47,506 bases of DNA, taken from Salinisphaera sp. (lineage in GTDB: Bacteria > Pseudomonadota > Gammaproteobacteria > Nevskiales > Salinisphaeraceae). Of the stretch, positions 40,645-46,998 are shown piece by piece. Each line of letters starts with the position of its first letter. The first letter of the stretch is position 1. The translations under genes were made by a program, and so were the position numbers. Where the stretch lies: assembly GCA_027858915.1 (NCBI GenBank), contig JAQIBT010000017.1, positions 1-47,506 on the forward strand. Reading direction: 5' to 3'. The notes beneath the pieces are model-generated. The model saw nothing but the letters and a program-made list of their open reading frames with translations, was not told where the DNA came from and did not search any database.

Positions 40645-42069
40645 ATGGGGTGGATCAGATGGCTTGGATGTGCGCTGGCCGGCGTGATGGTGGCGTCAGG
40701 GCTGTCTGCCTGCAGCACGACGAGAACGCTCTCGCACGGCCGGTTCGACCGGATTCCGATGGTCGAACCGCACGGCGATCCAGAAGCCCTGGTGCTGCTG
40801 TTGTCCGGACTGCACGGGATTGGGCCGCGCGATCAGGCTCTGGCTCGTGCGCTGGCCAATCAGGGCGGCCTGGTGGCAATGCTGGATACGCCGGCGCTGT
40901 TGCAGAGCCTGGCCGCCGACGGCGACGACTGCAGCTATCCGGACGGCGACCTGGAGAATCTCGGCCATTACATCGAGGCGGCTTATTCGCTGCCCGGTTA
41001 TCGGCCACCGATCCTGGCCGGCGACGATATCGGAGCGACCCTGGCGATGGCCACGCTCGCTCAGGCCAACGACCAGACGTTTGCCGGCGCGATCACCACA
41101 TCCTTCAGCCCCCGGATCAATACCCCAGCGCGCCTATGCAACACCGGCGCGCTCAAGACTCAGGAAGACAAGACGGGCTTTACGGTCGCGCCGGCACCAC
41201 AGCTTGCGGTGCCCTGGTTCGATCAACAAACGGATATACCAGCACGCAATGTGCTGGCGCCCTTCGCCGCCGCCAGTGACAACGCGACGCTGCTTGCGCC
41301 CGGCATACCGCGGGTGAACGCGATGGGCGATCGCCCGCTGGCATTGGCGTTCCATCAGCTGCGGGCACGTCAGGAGGCCGAAGCGACTGCGGCGTTGCCA
41401 GCCAGCGTCGAAGACCTGCCGCTGACCCTGCTCAAGGCAGCGCCCGGCGGTGCGCATCCTCATACGATGGCGATCCTGCTGACCGGCGATGGCGGCTGGG
41501 CCGGTATCGACAAGGATATCGGTGATGCAGTGGCTGCGGCCGGTATTCCGGTGGTGGGCTTCGATACGCTGCGTTACTACTGGAAGTCGCGCTCGCCAGA
41601 AGAGTCGGCGCACGATATCTCGCGCGTGATGCGCTATTACAGCCAACAATGGCATCGGCCCAAAGTGCTGTTGATCGGCTATTCGCGCGGCGCCGATGTG
41701 CTGCCCTTCATCATCAACCGGCTGCCGGCGGATCAGCGTCAATCGATCGAGCGTGCCGTGATGCTGGCGCTCGGCTCGCACATCACTTTCGAATTCGAGA
41801 TCAAATCCTGGTTCGGTTTTTCCGGCGACGGCATACCGGTCACCCCGGAAGCGGCCGCCTTGCCGGCCGGGCTGGGGCTGTGCATCTACGGCACCGACGA
41901 CGACGACAGTATCTGCCAGCGGCTCGACCCGGCCCGGATGCAGCAGATTCCGCTGGCCGGCGGCCATCATTTTGACGGCGGCTATGAAGAGATCGCACGG
42001 CTCATTCTGAATAATCTGTCCCCGGCGGTCGGGATTGACAGGCCCAGCGTGGCGACCACCAAGCCGTGA
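40645..42069 (+). CDS. acvB: AcvB/VirJ-family lipoprotein hydrolase
   Basis: 474 residues with a lipoprotein signal (hydrophobic stretch ending LSAC, lipidated C23). Two alpha/beta-hydrolase-like halves are present: the first (about 40-230) is degenerate, with GDDIGA where a nucleophile elbow would be. The second (about 270-460) is the VirJ domain with LTGDGGWAGID (279-289) and the elbow GYSRGAD with S347, plus the His in PLAGGHHFDGGY. In Agrobacterium AcvB is a periplasmic lysyl-phosphatidylglycerol hydrolase. Here it is followed without a gap by a second, VirJ-only gene. Confidence 0.9.
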   Translation: MGWIRWLGCALAGVMVASGLSACSTTRTLSHGRFDRIPMVEPHGDPEALVLLLSGLHGIGPRDQALARALANQGGLVAMLDTPALLQSLAADGDDCSYPDGDLENLGHYIEAAYSLPGYRPPILAGDDIGATLAMATLAQANDQTFAGAITTSFSPRINTPARLCNTGALKTQEDKTGFTVAPAPQLAVPWFDQQTDIPARNVLAPFAAASDNATLLAPGIPRVNAMGDRPLALAFHQLRARQEAEATAALPASVEDLPLTLLKAAPGGAHPHTMAILLTGDGGWAGIDKDIGDAVAAAGIPVVGFDTLRYYWKSRSPEESAHDISRVMRYYSQQWHRPKVLLIGYSRGADVLPFIINRLPADQRQSIERAVMLALGSHITFEFEIKSWFGFSGDGIPVTPEAAALPAGLGLCIYGTDDDDSICQRLDPARMQQIPLAGGHHFDGGYEEIARLILNNLSPAVGIDRPSVATTKP

Positions 42070-42743
42070 GCCGCCACATCCTGGGCCTGCCGTTGATCGA
42101 CTGTCCATTGCCTGGCGGCACACCGACGAGCGATACGTTCGCGATCTTCTTTTCCGGCGATGGCGGCTGGGCGCGCTTCGAGCGTGGCATTGCACGCCGG
42201 CTGGTGGCTGCCGGCATGCCGGTCGTCGGCTGGAGTGCGTTTCGCTATCTGTGGCGGCAACGCACGCCGGACAGCGTGGCGGCGGATCTGTCGCGCGTCA
42301 TCCAGGCCTACGGCCAGGCCTGGCAATGTCGGCGCGTCGTGCTGGTGGGTTTCTCGCGCGGTGCCGATCTCCTGCCGTTTGCGTTCAATCGCCTGCCGGG
42401 TGTCGAGCAGGCGCGTGTGGTGCAGATCGTGTTACTGGGGATTGCGCCGCAGGTGGCGTTTCGTTATCGGCTGCGCGACTGGCTGCGCATCGGCCGTCCG
42501 CCACCCAGGCGCAATGTGTTGATGGAACTGGCCCAGTTGCCGGCATCGATCACGCTATGCGTGAACGGACAAGACGACACCGAGGCCGCCAGCGATACCG
42601 CGTTGTCGGCCACGGGTATCGAGGTTCAGCACTGGCCGGGTGGTCATCACATCGGGCGCGATCACGTCGGCCTGGCGTGGCTTATCAGCCAGCGCAGCGG
42701 CCATCGTAACGGCCATCGTAACGGCTTGACGCCAAGTCGATAA
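42066..42743 (+). CDS. Second VirJ-domain hydrolase, single-domain, no signal peptide
   Basis: 225 residues corresponding to only the C-terminal VirJ domain of the preceding protein: FFSGDGGWARFER (28-40), elbow GFSRGAD with S97, and a terminal WPGGHHIGRDH. No signal peptide or lipobox is visible from the GTG start, which overlaps the acvB stop by 4 bases, so it may be cytoplasmic unless another start is used. It probably arose by tandem duplication of the VirJ half. The C-terminus carries a 12-bp tandem duplication coding HRNGHRNG. Confidence 0.85.
   Translation: MSRHILGLPLIDCPLPGGTPTSDTFAIFFSGDGGWARFERGIARRLVAAGMPVVGWSAFRYLWRQRTPDSVAADLSRVIQAYGQAWQCRRVVLVGFSRGADLLPFAFNRLPGVEQARVVQIVLLGIAPQVAFRYRLRDWLRIGRPPPRRNVLMELAQLPASITLCVNGQDDTEAASDTALSATGIEVQHWPGGHHIGRDHVGLAWLISQRSGHRNGHRNGLTPSR
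42699..42722 (+). repeat. 12-bp tandem duplication in the second VirJ gene
   Basis: GGCCATCGTAAC occurs twice in tandem and in frame, encoding repeated Gly-His-Arg-Asn near the C-terminus. It is a likely slippage product. Confidence 0.85.
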
Positions 42744-42971: not shown

Positions 42972-44216
42972 ATGTCTTCTGTTCACCACGCTGCGGCTAC
43001 TGAGTTTCTCGGTCTTGCCCCCTTTCTGCGCAAGAGCATCCACAACGTCGATCTGCAGCCTTTGGCTCAGGAGTGGATTGCGCTTGCCGAAGCCAATTCC
43101 GATGACGCCAATCTGTGGATGAATCTGGCCACGCTGATGCTGTGTCTGGGTGCGCGCGAACTGGGCCTGGATATTCAGGCCCAGGCACTGGCAATGCAGC
43201 AGCGTTTTTCCATGCCGGCCGCTCAACAGCCGGCGAGACTGCGTGTCCTGCTGCTGATGGCCCCGGGCGATCTGGCGGCCAACATGCCGCTGGACTGCCT
43301 GCTCGAAGACAGTGACATCGATCTCGAGTACTACTTTGTCCTGCCCTTCGAGGCACTGGAAAAAGCCTTGCTGCCCGACCATGACCTGGTCATCCTGGGG
43401 ATGAGCGATTCCGACGACAATCGACCCATCCTCGAGGCCATCACGCCCGTGCTGAAAGACTGGCCCAGACCCTTGTTGAACAGGCCATCGGCCGTGGCCA
43501 ACACAGAGCGCGAGCGGGCCAGTCAGCTGCTGCAAGGCGTGCCCGGGCTGATAATGCCGCCGACGCTGGCCGTCATGCGTGACGCACTGCAACGCATCGC
43601 GGCCGAAGATACCCCAATCACCGCGGCATGCGAGGGCATGAATTTTCCGGTCATCGTGCGTCCGCGAGACTCCCACGGCGGGCACGGTCTCGCCCGATTG
43701 GACGATCCCGAGATGCTGGCCGAATATCTCGCAGGTATCGACGGCGAGCATTTCACAATCTCTCCGTTCATCGACTATCGCAACGAAGACGGCCTTTACG
43801 CCAAGTATCGGGTGGTGCTGGTCGACGGCGTGCCCTTTGCCAGTCACATGGCAATTTCCGAGCATTGGATGATTCACTACGTCAACGCCGGCATGTACGA
43901 AGATAGCGCCAAACGCGCCCAGGAAGCCGCCTGGATGGCTTCGTTCGATGACTTTGCGGCTCGCCACCAACCGGCCCTCAATGCCATCTATGAGCGCACG
44001 GCGCTGGATTATGTCTGCATCGATTGCGCGCAGACCCGCGATGGCCAACTGTTGGTCTTCGAGGTGGATCACGCCATGGTGGTTCATGCCATGGACTCCG
44101 CCGAGCTGTTCCCTCACAAGCAGGAGCACATGGCCAAGGCAAAGACCGCATTGCGCAATTTCCTGCTGCGGCGTGCCGAGACAGAAGACGCTCGCACCAC
44201 AGGCGAGCCGGCATGA
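42972..44216 (+). CDS. ATP-grasp-like protein with an N-terminal helical (TPR-like) region, function unknown
   Basis: 414 residues, cytoplasmic. The N-terminus (about 1-80) is helical with a TPR-like feel (EWIALAEANSDDANLWMNLATLMLCLGARELGLDIQAQALAMQ). A Rossmann-like segment follows (RLRVLLLMAPGDLAANMPLDCLL). The C-terminal half resembles an ATP-grasp domain: FPVIVRPRDSHGGHGLARL (lysine/arginine strand and glycine-rich loop), then YAKYRVVLVDGVPFASHMAISEHWMIHY and a metal-binding-type LLVFEVDHAMVVHAMD. It would be expected to form an amide or similar bond using ATP. GAGG lies about 12 bases before the ATG. Its stop overlaps the start of the SerC-type gene by 4 bases, so the two are made together. 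The pathway is not known to me. Confidence 0.8.
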   Translation: MSSVHHAAATEFLGLAPFLRKSIHNVDLQPLAQEWIALAEANSDDANLWMNLATLMLCLGARELGLDIQAQALAMQQRFSMPAAQQPARLRVLLLMAPGDLAANMPLDCLLEDSDIDLEYYFVLPFEALEKALLPDHDLVILGMSDSDDNRPILEAITPVLKDWPRPLLNRPSAVANTERERASQLLQGVPGLIMPPTLAVMRDALQRIAAEDTPITAACEGMNFPVIVRPRDSHGGHGLARLDDPEMLAEYLAGIDGEHFTISPFIDYRNEDGLYAKYRVVLVDGVPFASHMAISEHWMIHYVNAGMYEDSAKRAQEAAWMASFDDFAARHQPALNAIYERTALDYVCIDCAQTRDGQLLVFEVDHAMVVHAMDSAELFPHKQEHMAKAKTALRNFLLRRAETEDARTTGEPA

Positions 44217-45313
44217 ATCCGCGTAATGCCATGAACTTCTCCGGTGGCCCCGGGGCGCTACCGGAAAGTGTGCTGCGCGAGGTGCAGCAGGCGATCATGG
44301 AGGTGCCCGAGGTCGGGCTGTCGGTCCTCGGGATCAGCCATCGCTCCGACTGGTTTGCCGGCGTGGTCGAGGAACTGGAGACCAACATTCGCCGCTTGCT
44401 CGGGGTAGGCAACGACTACCACGTGCTGCTGTTGCAGGGCGGCGCGACGCAACAATTCAGCATGGTGCCGATGAGCCTGCTGCCGCCCGACGGCGCACCG
44501 GCAGATTATCTGCATACCGGTTACTGGAGCGGCAAGGTGCTCCCGTCAGCGCGTCGCGAGGGGCCGATACGGGTAGCGTGGAGCGGCGAGCCCGATGGAT
44601 TCCGGCATCTGCCTAGCGACGAAGAGCTCGCGCTGAACGCCGATGCGCCTTATCTCCACTATGTCTCCAACGAGACAGTAGAAGGGCTGCAGTTCCACCG
44701 CCTGCTCGGGCACGACCACGTACTGCGGATATGCGACATGTCGTCAGACTTCCTGTCGCGGCCGGTCGAAGCACAGCGTTTCGGCTTGATCTATGCCCAT
44801 GCCCAGAAAAACGTCGGCCCGGCTGGGGTGACCGTCGTCGTGGTGCGTGATGACCTCCTGGAAGACGCACCGCAAGACCTGCCCGACTTTCTCGACTATC
44901 GCAGCCAAGCCCGCGCGCACTCTATCCTCAATACGCCGCCGGTGTTTGCTATCTACGTGGTCTTGCTGGTCACTCGCTGGCTGATGCAAGAGGTTGGCGG
45001 TCTGGCCGCCATGGCGGCGATCAATCAACAGAAAGCAGCAAGGCTCTACGAAGTGCTGGACGAGAGCCACGGCTTTTACTGTGGGCGAGCGGCGAAGCAG
45101 GATCGCTCGTTGATGAACGTGGCCTTCAACCTGCCAGACCAGGCATTGGAGCAGCGCTTTCTTGCCGAGGCACAGGCCGCCGGCTTCTCCGGGCTCAAGG
45201 GGCATCGGGCTGTCGGCGGCATGCGCGCGTCGATCTACAACGCGGTAACGCTCGAGGCAGTTGAACAACTGGCCGACTTCATGGACAGGTTTCGGCGTAC
45301 TCAGCAGCGCTGA
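44213..45313 (+). CDS. serC: Phosphoserine aminotransferase family protein (SerC type)
   Basis: 366 residues from the ATG at 44213. It opens MNFSGGPGALPESVLREVQ; PLP lysine K199 lies in AHAQKNVGPAG; H43/R44 in SHRSDWF and the C-terminal GHRAVGGMRASIYNA match the phosphate-gripping residues of SerC. It therefore looks able to convert 3-phosphohydroxypyruvate and glutamate to phosphoserine. The coupling to an ATP-grasp-like gene instead of aroA, hisC or serA is unusual and suggests a specialised copy, or supply of an amino-acid substrate to the partner. An upstream in-frame start at 44024 lies inside the ATP-grasp gene and is rejected. Confidence 0.9.
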   Translation: MNPRNAMNFSGGPGALPESVLREVQQAIMEVPEVGLSVLGISHRSDWFAGVVEELETNIRRLLGVGNDYHVLLLQGGATQQFSMVPMSLLPPDGAPADYLHTGYWSGKVLPSARREGPIRVAWSGEPDGFRHLPSDEELALNADAPYLHYVSNETVEGLQFHRLLGHDHVLRICDMSSDFLSRPVEAQRFGLIYAHAQKNVGPAGVTVVVVRDDLLEDAPQDLPDFLDYRSQARAHSILNTPPVFAIYVVLLVTRWLMQEVGGLAAMAAINQQKAARLYEVLDESHGFYCGRAAKQDRSLMNVAFNLPDQALEQRFLAEAQAAGFSGLKGHRAVGGMRASIYNAVTLEAVEQLADFMDRFRRTQQR

Positions 45314-45415: not shown

Positions 45416-45525
45416 ATGTCCCATCTGCCCGTTCGTCTAGCCGTCTTCGACGTCAACGGCACGCTCATCACCGATCCATCGCAACGCACGCTGGATGCTG
45501 CCGATATCGCCATCCCCGCGCCGCG
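45416..45525 (+). pseudogene. N-terminal stub of a HAD-like hydrolase gene cut by a repeat element
   Basis: The frame starts SHLPVRLAVFDVNGTLITDPSQRTLDAADIAIPAP. VFDVNGTL resembles HAD motif I (nucleophile Asp, with Asn in place of the second Asp). About 37 codons in, it runs into the inverted-repeat element at 45526 and stops at 45568. The rest of the HAD gene is not visible after the element. Confidence 0.55.
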
Positions 45526-45702
45526 AGTGTCCTGTCACGGGTATTTTGTCGCCCCACATGCCATGTGAAAAAAAGGAGCGCCTGTGTGTCCCAATCACCG
45601 CGTTGCGTTCCTTTGCCATGGCGAGCCATGACGCAGTCGCGCGCCTTGTGCCTGGAACACACAGGCGCTCTGAATACGGCAAAATACCCGTGGCAGGACA
45701 CT
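45526..45702. mobile_element. MITE-like element, second copy of the AGTGTCCTG family
   Basis: A 177-bp segment with about 27-bp inverted ends (AGTGTCCTGTCACGGG left; AGTGTCCTGCCACGGG on the other strand at the right; both followed by TATTTTG). The centre has GCCATGGCGAGCCATGAC, like the CATGGCTAAAGCCATGAC centre of the element at 5141. No target duplication is obvious. It interrupts the HAD-like stub. Confidence 0.75.
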
Positions 45703-46254: not shown

Positions 46255-46998
46255 ATGTCGTACAAGACGGTTCTCATTACCCCGGTAATCCTAGCTGCAA
46301 TGGCTGTGACCTATTCCGGCGTATCTTCTGCCTCCATCATCTACGATTCCCTGCAGCCGGCGCACGGCACCGGATTCGGGACCCAGGACAACATCCTGAC
46401 GCTGAACAGTAATCTGGCAGCTCTTGGTGGCGTGGAAACAGGCAAGGTCGCCTGGAACGGTACGAAAGACGTCTACAGCGGCGTCCAGGTGGACACCAAT
46501 AGCGGAAAGACCGCTACGTTTTCTTTTGGTGATCTCGGCATCACCAATGCCGGTCAGATTCTGCTGACCTGGAATCCGAATGAAATAGGCAATACGGCTG
46601 GCCAGAAGACACAAGTCGACAGCTTGTTTCTGTCGATTTATGCGCCGGACGGTAGCGTACTTACTAGTCAGTCGCTAGCGGCACCGGTCACGCACCTCAC
46701 GACTCCGGTCAATCCGGGGCTCGGCGGTGACGGCTTTGCTTACCTGCTGGATACGGCGGGCATAGGCAGCGTGAATTCCGCACTGGCCGGCATAGGCGGG
46801 AGCTTCAGCGCCTACAGGCTTGGTCTGGAATCGACTGTGAAATTCGCGGATGCAGGGCCTGATACCTGGATTATCGGTTCGCGGCCGTATGGTGATACGA
46901 GCGTTTCCGAGCCCGGAACACTCGGCCTGCTGGCGCTATCTGTCCTCGGCATAGCTTTCACTAAACTTTATGCCACGAGACGCAGATACCGGGCATAG
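46255..46998 (+). CDS. PEP-CTERM sorting-domain surface protein
   Basis: Secreted protein of 247 residues. It has an N-terminal signal peptide (about 1-27, KTVLITPVILAAMAVTYSGVSSAS) and a C-terminal tripartite exosortase signal: SEPGTLGL (the PEP-type motif), a hydrophobic helix LLALSVLGIAFTKL and the basic tail RRRYRA. The mature part (about 28-220) is Gly/Ser/Thr-rich, with almost no cysteine, and probably a beta-rich extracellular domain; no named domain is recognised. Such proteins are processed by exosortase and often belong to exopolysaccharide-dependent flocs. No exosortase gene is in the window. A sigma-54 promoter lies before it and a terminator after it; GAGG lies about 10 bases before the ATG. 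Confidence 0.88.
   Translation: MSYKTVLITPVILAAMAVTYSGVSSASIIYDSLQPAHGTGFGTQDNILTLNSNLAALGGVETGKVAWNGTKDVYSGVQVDTNSGKTATFSFGDLGITNAGQILLTWNPNEIGNTAGQKTQVDSLFLSIYAPDGSVLTSQSLAAPVTHLTTPVNPGLGGDGFAYLLDTAGIGSVNSALAGIGGSFSAYRLGLESTVKFADAGPDTWIIGSRPYGDTSVSEPGTLGLLALSVLGIAFTKLYATRRRYRA

Follow-up and report, generated by a model that had tools for sequence, protein, structure and literature searches.

Positions 42972 to 45313 of a 47,506-nucleotide stretch of DNA from Salinisphaera sp., a salt-loving kind of bacterium (contig JAQIBT010000017.1, the contig C8 of the 4.33 Mb draft genome G000; the whole stretch is referred to here as the window) carry a two-gene unit in which a putative ATP-grasp ligase is coupled to a second SerC-type transaminase belonging to a separate subfamily. 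The pair recurs in different bacterial groups, the ligase family occurs with two distinct sets of partner enzymes, and it is statistically linked to flagella. A tentative reading, to which a probability of about 0.4 is given, would be that the product of the dedicated SerC is joined by the ligase to a carboxylate of a protein or of a glycan attached to one, which would most likely be flagellar in most of the carriers. The first-pass annotation of this stretch, which imagined an amino-acid conjugate pathway with SerC supplying phosphoserine or a related amino acid to the ligase, is partly supported; the second partner set and the flagellar link were beyond its view.

The ligase and the SerC of the window

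Both genes are read from the forward strand and occur in the layout described by the first-pass annotation, a ligase gene (42972-44216, 414 amino acids) followed by a full-length SerC gene (44213-45313, 366 amino acids), with a 4-base overlap, ATGA, at positions 44213-44216 as given by the coordinates of the open reading frames (ORFs) and the spacing measurement. The designation of the first protein as a tetratricopeptide repeat (TPR)-like/ATP-grasp protein holds for the fold but finds nothing in Pfam, which gave no match at all, neither to ATP-grasp nor to TPR, and was equally silent for two of the four ligase relatives that were scanned. The RimK-type alpha-L-glutamate ligase family TIGR00768 of NCBIfam scored 19.6 bits on the window protein, and 15.0 and 24.2 bits on two relatives, all far under the cut-off of 143.4. 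A profile of the ligase family run against the sequences of the PDB did reach LysX (E 3e-4) and TPR proteins (E 4e-4 to 1e-3).

The AlphaFold model built from 69 aligned sequences (mean predicted local distance difference test score, pLDDT, 94.3; predicted template modelling score, pTM, 0.91) consists of four N-terminal TPR-like helices (residues 16-75, positions 43017-43196), delineated from the secondary structure of the model and from the profile match to TPR proteins, followed by a ligase part (residues 88-412, positions 43233-44207) which superposes on RimK, LysX, ArgX and other ATP-grasp enzymes. Foldseek retrieved Ddl and LysX/ArgX at E about 1e-11, and the best match of a second fold comparison was RimK (PDB code 5zct; Z 18.9, root-mean-square deviation 3.6 over 266 residues, 16% identity, model residues 90-402), ahead of LysX and ArgX (Z 18.1-18.4), glutathione synthetase (16.8) and inositol-phosphate kinases (16-17); matches differing by at most one Z unit were treated as tied, and Ddl and other ATP-grasp enzymes lie within three Z units of the RimK/LysX match. 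On the model, the protein thus has a pre-ATP-grasp plus ATP-grasp fold of the RimK/LysX type. RimK, LysX and ArgX are protein-modifying enzymes which attach an amino acid at a carboxylate. The window ligase resembles them in fold (Z 18.1-18.9) and is weakly related in sequence, but differs by an identity of 12-17% in the superposition, a score far under the RimK-family cut-off, an additional TPR-like N-terminus, a SerC or decarboxylase partner, and an arginine in place of the ATP-site lysine of LysX. This arginine, R230 (codon at 43659-43661), is invariant among the 69 sequences, together with K278, R280, D351 and E364, and D366 is conserved in at least 90% of them. In the profile alignment R230 lies opposite the LysX lysine, which we take to be an ATP contact, just as the assignment of ligase residues to ATP or Mg binding is an assumption of ours. 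Judging from the alignment, the nucleotide site of the ligase is unusual.

Departures from this architecture occur among the relatives. Two distant ones (L153:7420-9738 and L154:7079-9475) display 10-11 Pfam TPR matches, and the genomes in which they lie, G347 and G413, also hold an ordinary ligase. The ligase of Rhizobium tumorigenes (L017:7953-9662) possesses an additional C-terminal tail of about 165 amino acids without any Pfam match.

The transaminase scores 609 bits against the subfamily model NF009112 (cut-off 563) and 438.5 bits against NF003764 (cut-off 253), and falls short of TIGR01364 (serC_1) with 428.3 bits for a cut-off of 443.6. The SerC of one relative of the pair (L027) reaches 646.5 bits with NF009112; the other members are assigned to the subfamily by sequence identity. 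Another SerC, 47% identical to that of the window, is encoded on contig C10 of the same genome, behind an ORF which we take to be gyrA-like from its translation. The idea that the window SerC is the sole housekeeping enzyme of the genome, raised by the first-pass annotation itself, is excluded by this copy and by genome surveys: across 31 genomes (this one and 30 relatives), a housekeeping SerC occurs in 29 and a second SerC only in three, which are those bearing the ligase, a match of 22.7 bits in G003 not being counted.

A set of 32 subfamily members, taken from 30 loci plus L015 and the window and perhaps not complete in every case, was compared with 29 housekeeping SerCs, which revealed both common and distinctive residues. 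K199 (codon at 44807-44809), H43 and R44 (codons at 44339-44344, the HR residues which the first-pass annotation correctly found intact), H331, R332 and R338 are common to the window SerC and all 29 housekeeping enzymes; K199 is presumably the lysine that binds pyridoxal 5'-phosphate (PLP), and the roles of the H and R residues are similarly assumed. In contrast, L39, W123, L139, V156 and H196 are identical in 32/32 subfamily members and different in 29/29 housekeeping SerCs, with glycine facing H196 and alanine facing W123 in all 29, while G40 occurs in 31/32 members and is replaced by glutamic acid in 29/29 housekeeping SerCs. The SerC substrate probably still bears phosphate and carboxylate groups and may not be the standard one.

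These data bear directly on the simplest explanation of a second serC, namely a spare phosphoserine or phosphohydroxythreonine transaminase serving serine or vitamin B6 synthesis, coupled to the ligase by accident. The H, R and K residues in common with housekeeping SerC and the scores above the cut-offs of two phosphoserine transaminase models would agree with it, but the subfamily changes H196, W123 and G40, the co-occurrence of the second SerC with the ligase among relatives and the adjacency of both genes in 29/80 loci from different groups make it very unlikely.

Two partner sets around one ligase family

A single scan of genome_contigs, covering 84,980 species, yielded 344 ligase relatives, the best 80 loci of which were retained and counted. 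These include close kin, e.g., several Duganella, Janthinobacterium and Halothiobacillus, a contig represented twice (L020 and L022, Salinisphaera hydrothermalis, genome G005) and a protein represented twice (L028 and L143); the ORFs of the locus maps are mechanical picks. With respect to the enzymes encoded within 3 kb of the ligase, the loci can be subdivided in two main types, type A with an adjoining SerC (29/80) and type B with a PLP decarboxylase (44/80), the latter accompanied in 33 of the 44 by another PLP protein of class-V fold.

The co-occurrence of the pair across genomes, envisaged by the first-pass annotation as a check, is thus borne out, and the intergenic spacing is equally conserved: from the ligase stop to the SerC start, the distance varies from -8 to +93 bases in the 29 loci that allowed its measurement (the window, L015 and 27 type-A loci, with starts picked by rule as those nearest to the expected place) and is exactly -4 in 12/29, the window included. 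The two type-A loci outside this sample have a reverse gene order (L090) or no start codon that could be found (L043). The same pair with the same overlap occurs on a Paraburkholderia plasmid, the SerC of which, 51% identical to that of the window, is the best among the plasmid matches listed. A chance adjacency of ligase and SerC is excluded by the conserved pairing, the spacing and the plasmid pair.

Type-A genomes usually hold more than one SerC. At least two occur in 24 of 28 (standing for 28 of the 29 type-A loci, L022 being left out as identical to G005) and a single one in four, all of them metagenome-assembled genome (MAG) records (G434, G045, G439, G445). The occurrence of an NF009112-type SerC without the ligase was followed in 31 genomes and in 20 of the 44 matching plasmid records. 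As a separate observation, no protein matching the window SerC was found in three betaproteobacterial MAGs of 4.0-4.4 Mb (G426, G427 and G428, genomes of L030, L033 and L034).

In type B, the representative decarboxylase belongs to Pyridoxal_deC (Pfam, E 5e-65). The third protein of these loci, of about 520 amino acids, has a Pfam match at E 0.067 only, and a sequence search of the PDB gave no match for it. Its model (pLDDT 87.3) compares best with NifS (Z 23.3) and alanine-glyoxylate aminotransferase (about 22.4); Foldseek alone ranked group II decarboxylases first. Two lysines, K243 and K297, are invariant in 27 sequences. On the model, this protein is a PLP enzyme of the class-V-aminotransferase fold, so that the ligase would be accompanied by a PLP enzyme of this fold always in type A and usually in type B. 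The decarboxylase is fused to the ligase in four loci (L061, L081, L088 and L094), one of the fusions having been followed over its whole sequence. A quick ligase tree, built without bootstrap, shows two changes between type A (33 rows) and type B (54 rows), with nine partnerless rows left out of the count. Taken together, the partner types are read as an exchange of amine-supplying enzymes around one ligase.

Flagellar association and proposed function

Flagellar genes were found in 32/80 ligase loci and in 2/53 control stretches (Fisher p 1.2e-6), with a flagellar query set drawn from the ligase loci themselves and thus biased in their favour, and with controls which were of comparable mean length and came from genomes that hold the ligase, many of these stretches being contig starts and several deriving from one genome (seven of 60 were dropped as shorter than 5 kb). 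One of the two control matches, FlgJ-like, may be an ordinary muramidase. Depending on the type, flagellar genes accompany 24/44 loci in type B, 7/29 in type A (p 0.008) and 1/7 without partner. Several kinds of flagellar gene recur next to members of the ligase family in different bacterial groups, namely FlaG/FliD/FliS, FlgA-I, FlgJ-L and FliC; the names rest on similarity and on nine neighbours confirmed by Pfam, i.e., FlaG twice, FliD, FliS, FlgA, two rod/hook proteins, one flagellin and one FlgL-like flagellin-family protein.

At the genome level, 370 genomes of the class were compared (completeness of at least 90% asked; at most four first-look ligase candidates scored per genome, so that some ligases may be missed). 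A flagellin-family gene (PF00669) occurs in 14/15 ligase genomes vs 196/355 others (p 0.003; 210/370 overall), a statistic that ignores kinship and a family that also catches the hook protein FlgL. The exception, G132, holds a distant partial ligase relative only and is devoid of FliG, and in two of the 14 positive genomes (G115 and G321) the ligase matches are also partial and distant. In G347 and G263 the flagellin gene lies about 2 kb from the ligase. Similarly, 19 of 20 checked ligase genomes, taken from 20 of the 80 loci, possess a flagellin-family gene, in some of them just a weak, FlgL-like match. The ligase family is therefore statistically linked to flagella.

On this basis the following mechanism can be proposed. 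The SerC-type transaminase would make an amino acid, very probably phosphate-bearing, such as phosphoserine or a close analogue, the latter being considered because the SerC subfamily has its own fixed changes. A dedicated transaminase adjoining a RimK-like ligase is most simply an amine supplier, and the TPR/RimK-like ligase would use ATP to activate a carboxylate, which would then form an amide with this amine. Most likely the TPR-like end would hold a protein, or a glycan attached to one, on which the carboxylate is located, with the flagellar filament or its glycan as the likeliest target in most carriers. In the related type-B lineage, a PLP decarboxylase, usually with the class-V-fold PLP enzyme, would provide a ligase of this kind with another amine. 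The second partner set and the flagellar statistics favour a surface protein or its glycan over a free amino-acid conjugate. The proposal is rather doubtful in its most specific form, in which a flagellum-linked ligase amidates carboxylates of the filament (protein or glycan), using phosphoserine in one lineage and a decarboxylated amine in the other, and each lineage has dedicated PLP enzymes for its amine.

Besides the kinship and FlgL limits attached to the co-occurrence figures, several observations weigh against the attachment to a flagellar protein or glycan. The replacement of the LysX ATP-site lysine by R230 means that ligase activity is not assured. Neither partner is found nearby in 7/80 ligase loci, and a search for a dedicated SerC in eight genomes and one plasmid record with partnerless ligases gave none above 49% identity to that of the window (three genomes and the plasmid without any SerC match, five genomes with only 40-49% identical SerCs); in one of these eight, that of L099, the proximity count did place a decarboxylase near the ligase. 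Phytohalomonas (L023, genome G041) holds the pair and has neither a flagellin-family gene nor FliG. A flagellar search of the whole window and of its same-genus counterparts L019 and L020 found nothing and, in the closed genome G007, about 66 kb separate the pair from the closest flagellin-family gene; flagellin and FliG do occur in G000, G005 and G007. A flagellar sigma-28 promoter ahead of the cassette was also considered and rejected, the enrichment not being convincing: sites with at most two mismatches precede 7/82 operon heads, 33/842 other ORFs and 18/94 flagellar ORFs (counts without significance test), and the best site of the window pair has three mismatches.

Some of these observations are also those expected if the product of the pair is a small soluble conjugate, e.g., a dipeptide-like metabolite, a signal or an antimetabolite, from phosphoserine and another acid, the flagellar neighbourhood being an insertion hot spot. 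The distribution of the ligase is patchy (2/13 other genomes of the same genus), plasmid copies exist, Phytohalomonas has the pair while lacking both a flagellin-family gene and FliG, and the structural kin include the small-molecule ligases Ddl, DcsG and glutathione synthetase. Exporter-type transporters near some type-B loci, MFS in four and LysE in four, would fit as well, but these families occur in few loci and LysE only in close kin. Moreover, several kinds of flagellar gene recur beside the ligase family in different bacterial groups, and the TPR-like end and the closest fold point to the protein-modifying RimK/LysX, though Ddl and others lie within three Z units. A soluble conjugate thus appears unlikely, while deserving consideration.

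A third possibility parallels a known capsule pathway, and the neighbours of the ligase bear on it. Among the neighbour clusters, 70 occur in at least three loci and 43 of these in at least four; Pfam was run on representatives of the 23 unnamed ones among the 43. Most of these 23 are common to close kin, e.g., six Duganella-like loci, and short-chain dehydrogenases are the commonest (15 loci). A phosphoribosyl-type Glycos_transf_3 and an epimerase-like gene occur in the same four Janthinobacterium-like loci. The enzymes Cj1436 and Cj1437 of Campylobacter jejuni use PLP. For the capsule of this species, Cj1436 converts serine phosphate to ethanolamine phosphate and Cj1437 makes serinol phosphate, these phosphorylated amines deriving from serine phosphate or a triose, and the ATP-using Cj1438C joins serinol phosphate or ethanolamine phosphate to glucuronic acid as an amide (PMC12409886). 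The likeness to the window pair is one of chemistry and concerns the capsule, not the flagellum. By analogy, the ligase could use phosphoserine or a decarboxylated amine to amidate a sugar acid, uronic or other, of a lipopolysaccharide or capsule, flagellin glycans being concerned only in some species. This close chemical parallel would also account for Phytohalomonas, but no nucleotide-sugar-dependent glycosyltransferase was found by Pfam among the representatives of the 23 unnamed clusters of at least four loci (the 27 clusters of three loci and the single neighbours lying outside this scope), which leaves the amidation of a sugar acid unlikely.

ATP-grasp enzymes in flagellin modification are already known, and in Shewanella and Clostridium difficile the modification is complete only when such genes are present. 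In the sfmABCDE operon of Shewanella oneidensis, SfmE is an ATP-grasp protein whose loss shifts the flagellin mass; unlike the window pair, this operon comprises a NeuB-domain protein, a thiamine pyrophosphate enzyme, a reductase and a methyltransferase, with neither SerC nor decarboxylase, and SfmE is assigned to ATP-grasp_4, a family to which the window ligase has no match (PMC3765264). In the type B flagellin locus of Clostridium difficile, the ATP-grasp gene CDR20291_0245, needed for the terminal peptidylamido-sugar of flagellin, is assigned to another ATP-grasp family (Pfam 13535) and has other partners than the window ligase (PMC5207246). Housekeeping SerC itself is a close comparison, with 47% identity and the same K, H and R residues, and differs from the window SerC, which belongs to the separate subfamily NF009112, adjoins a ligase gene and shows several fixed differences. 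In searches of open-licence literature, none of the titles and abstract openings obtained names the ligase-SerC pair or its family; an earlier mention is possible in the survey of amidoligases which Iyer and colleagues published in 2009 and which PMC3765264 cites.

Neighbouring features and significance of the pair

Other features surround the pair. Downstream of the SerC gene, a short ORF (45416-45565) starts like a HAD hydrolase, by a motif which we take to be characteristic, and then stops, perhaps as a gene remnant; a HAD-like phosphatase behind SerC, considered from this start, was rejected after the Pfam search gave no match. Upstream, two neighbouring genes located at 40645-42743 each contain a VirJ domain (PF06057), the first with an additional N-terminal part which is weakly hydrolase-like, below cut-off. 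A PEP-CTERM sorting signal (PF07589, 21 bits vs a cut-off of 20.7) lies close to the end of an ORF of 247 amino acids (46255-46998). Outside the window, a zinc-protease-like protein of about 311 amino acids occurs near the ligase (L063:9246-10181, L095:9165-10100 and seven more loci, from Janthinobacterium, Duganella, Massilia and Undibacterium); in Pfam, one representative has a weak match below cut-off and the other none.

The proposed function, which can be tested, is offered for hundreds of ATP-grasp proteins invisible to Pfam (344 relatives in one scan), and it also offers an explanation for the second serC kept by many proteobacteria. Comparing the two naturally occurring partner sets could identify the substrate through a difference in mass. 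If the flagellar link is true, the attachment of a dedicated amino acid or amine through an amide bond would be added to the known decorations of the flagellar filament.

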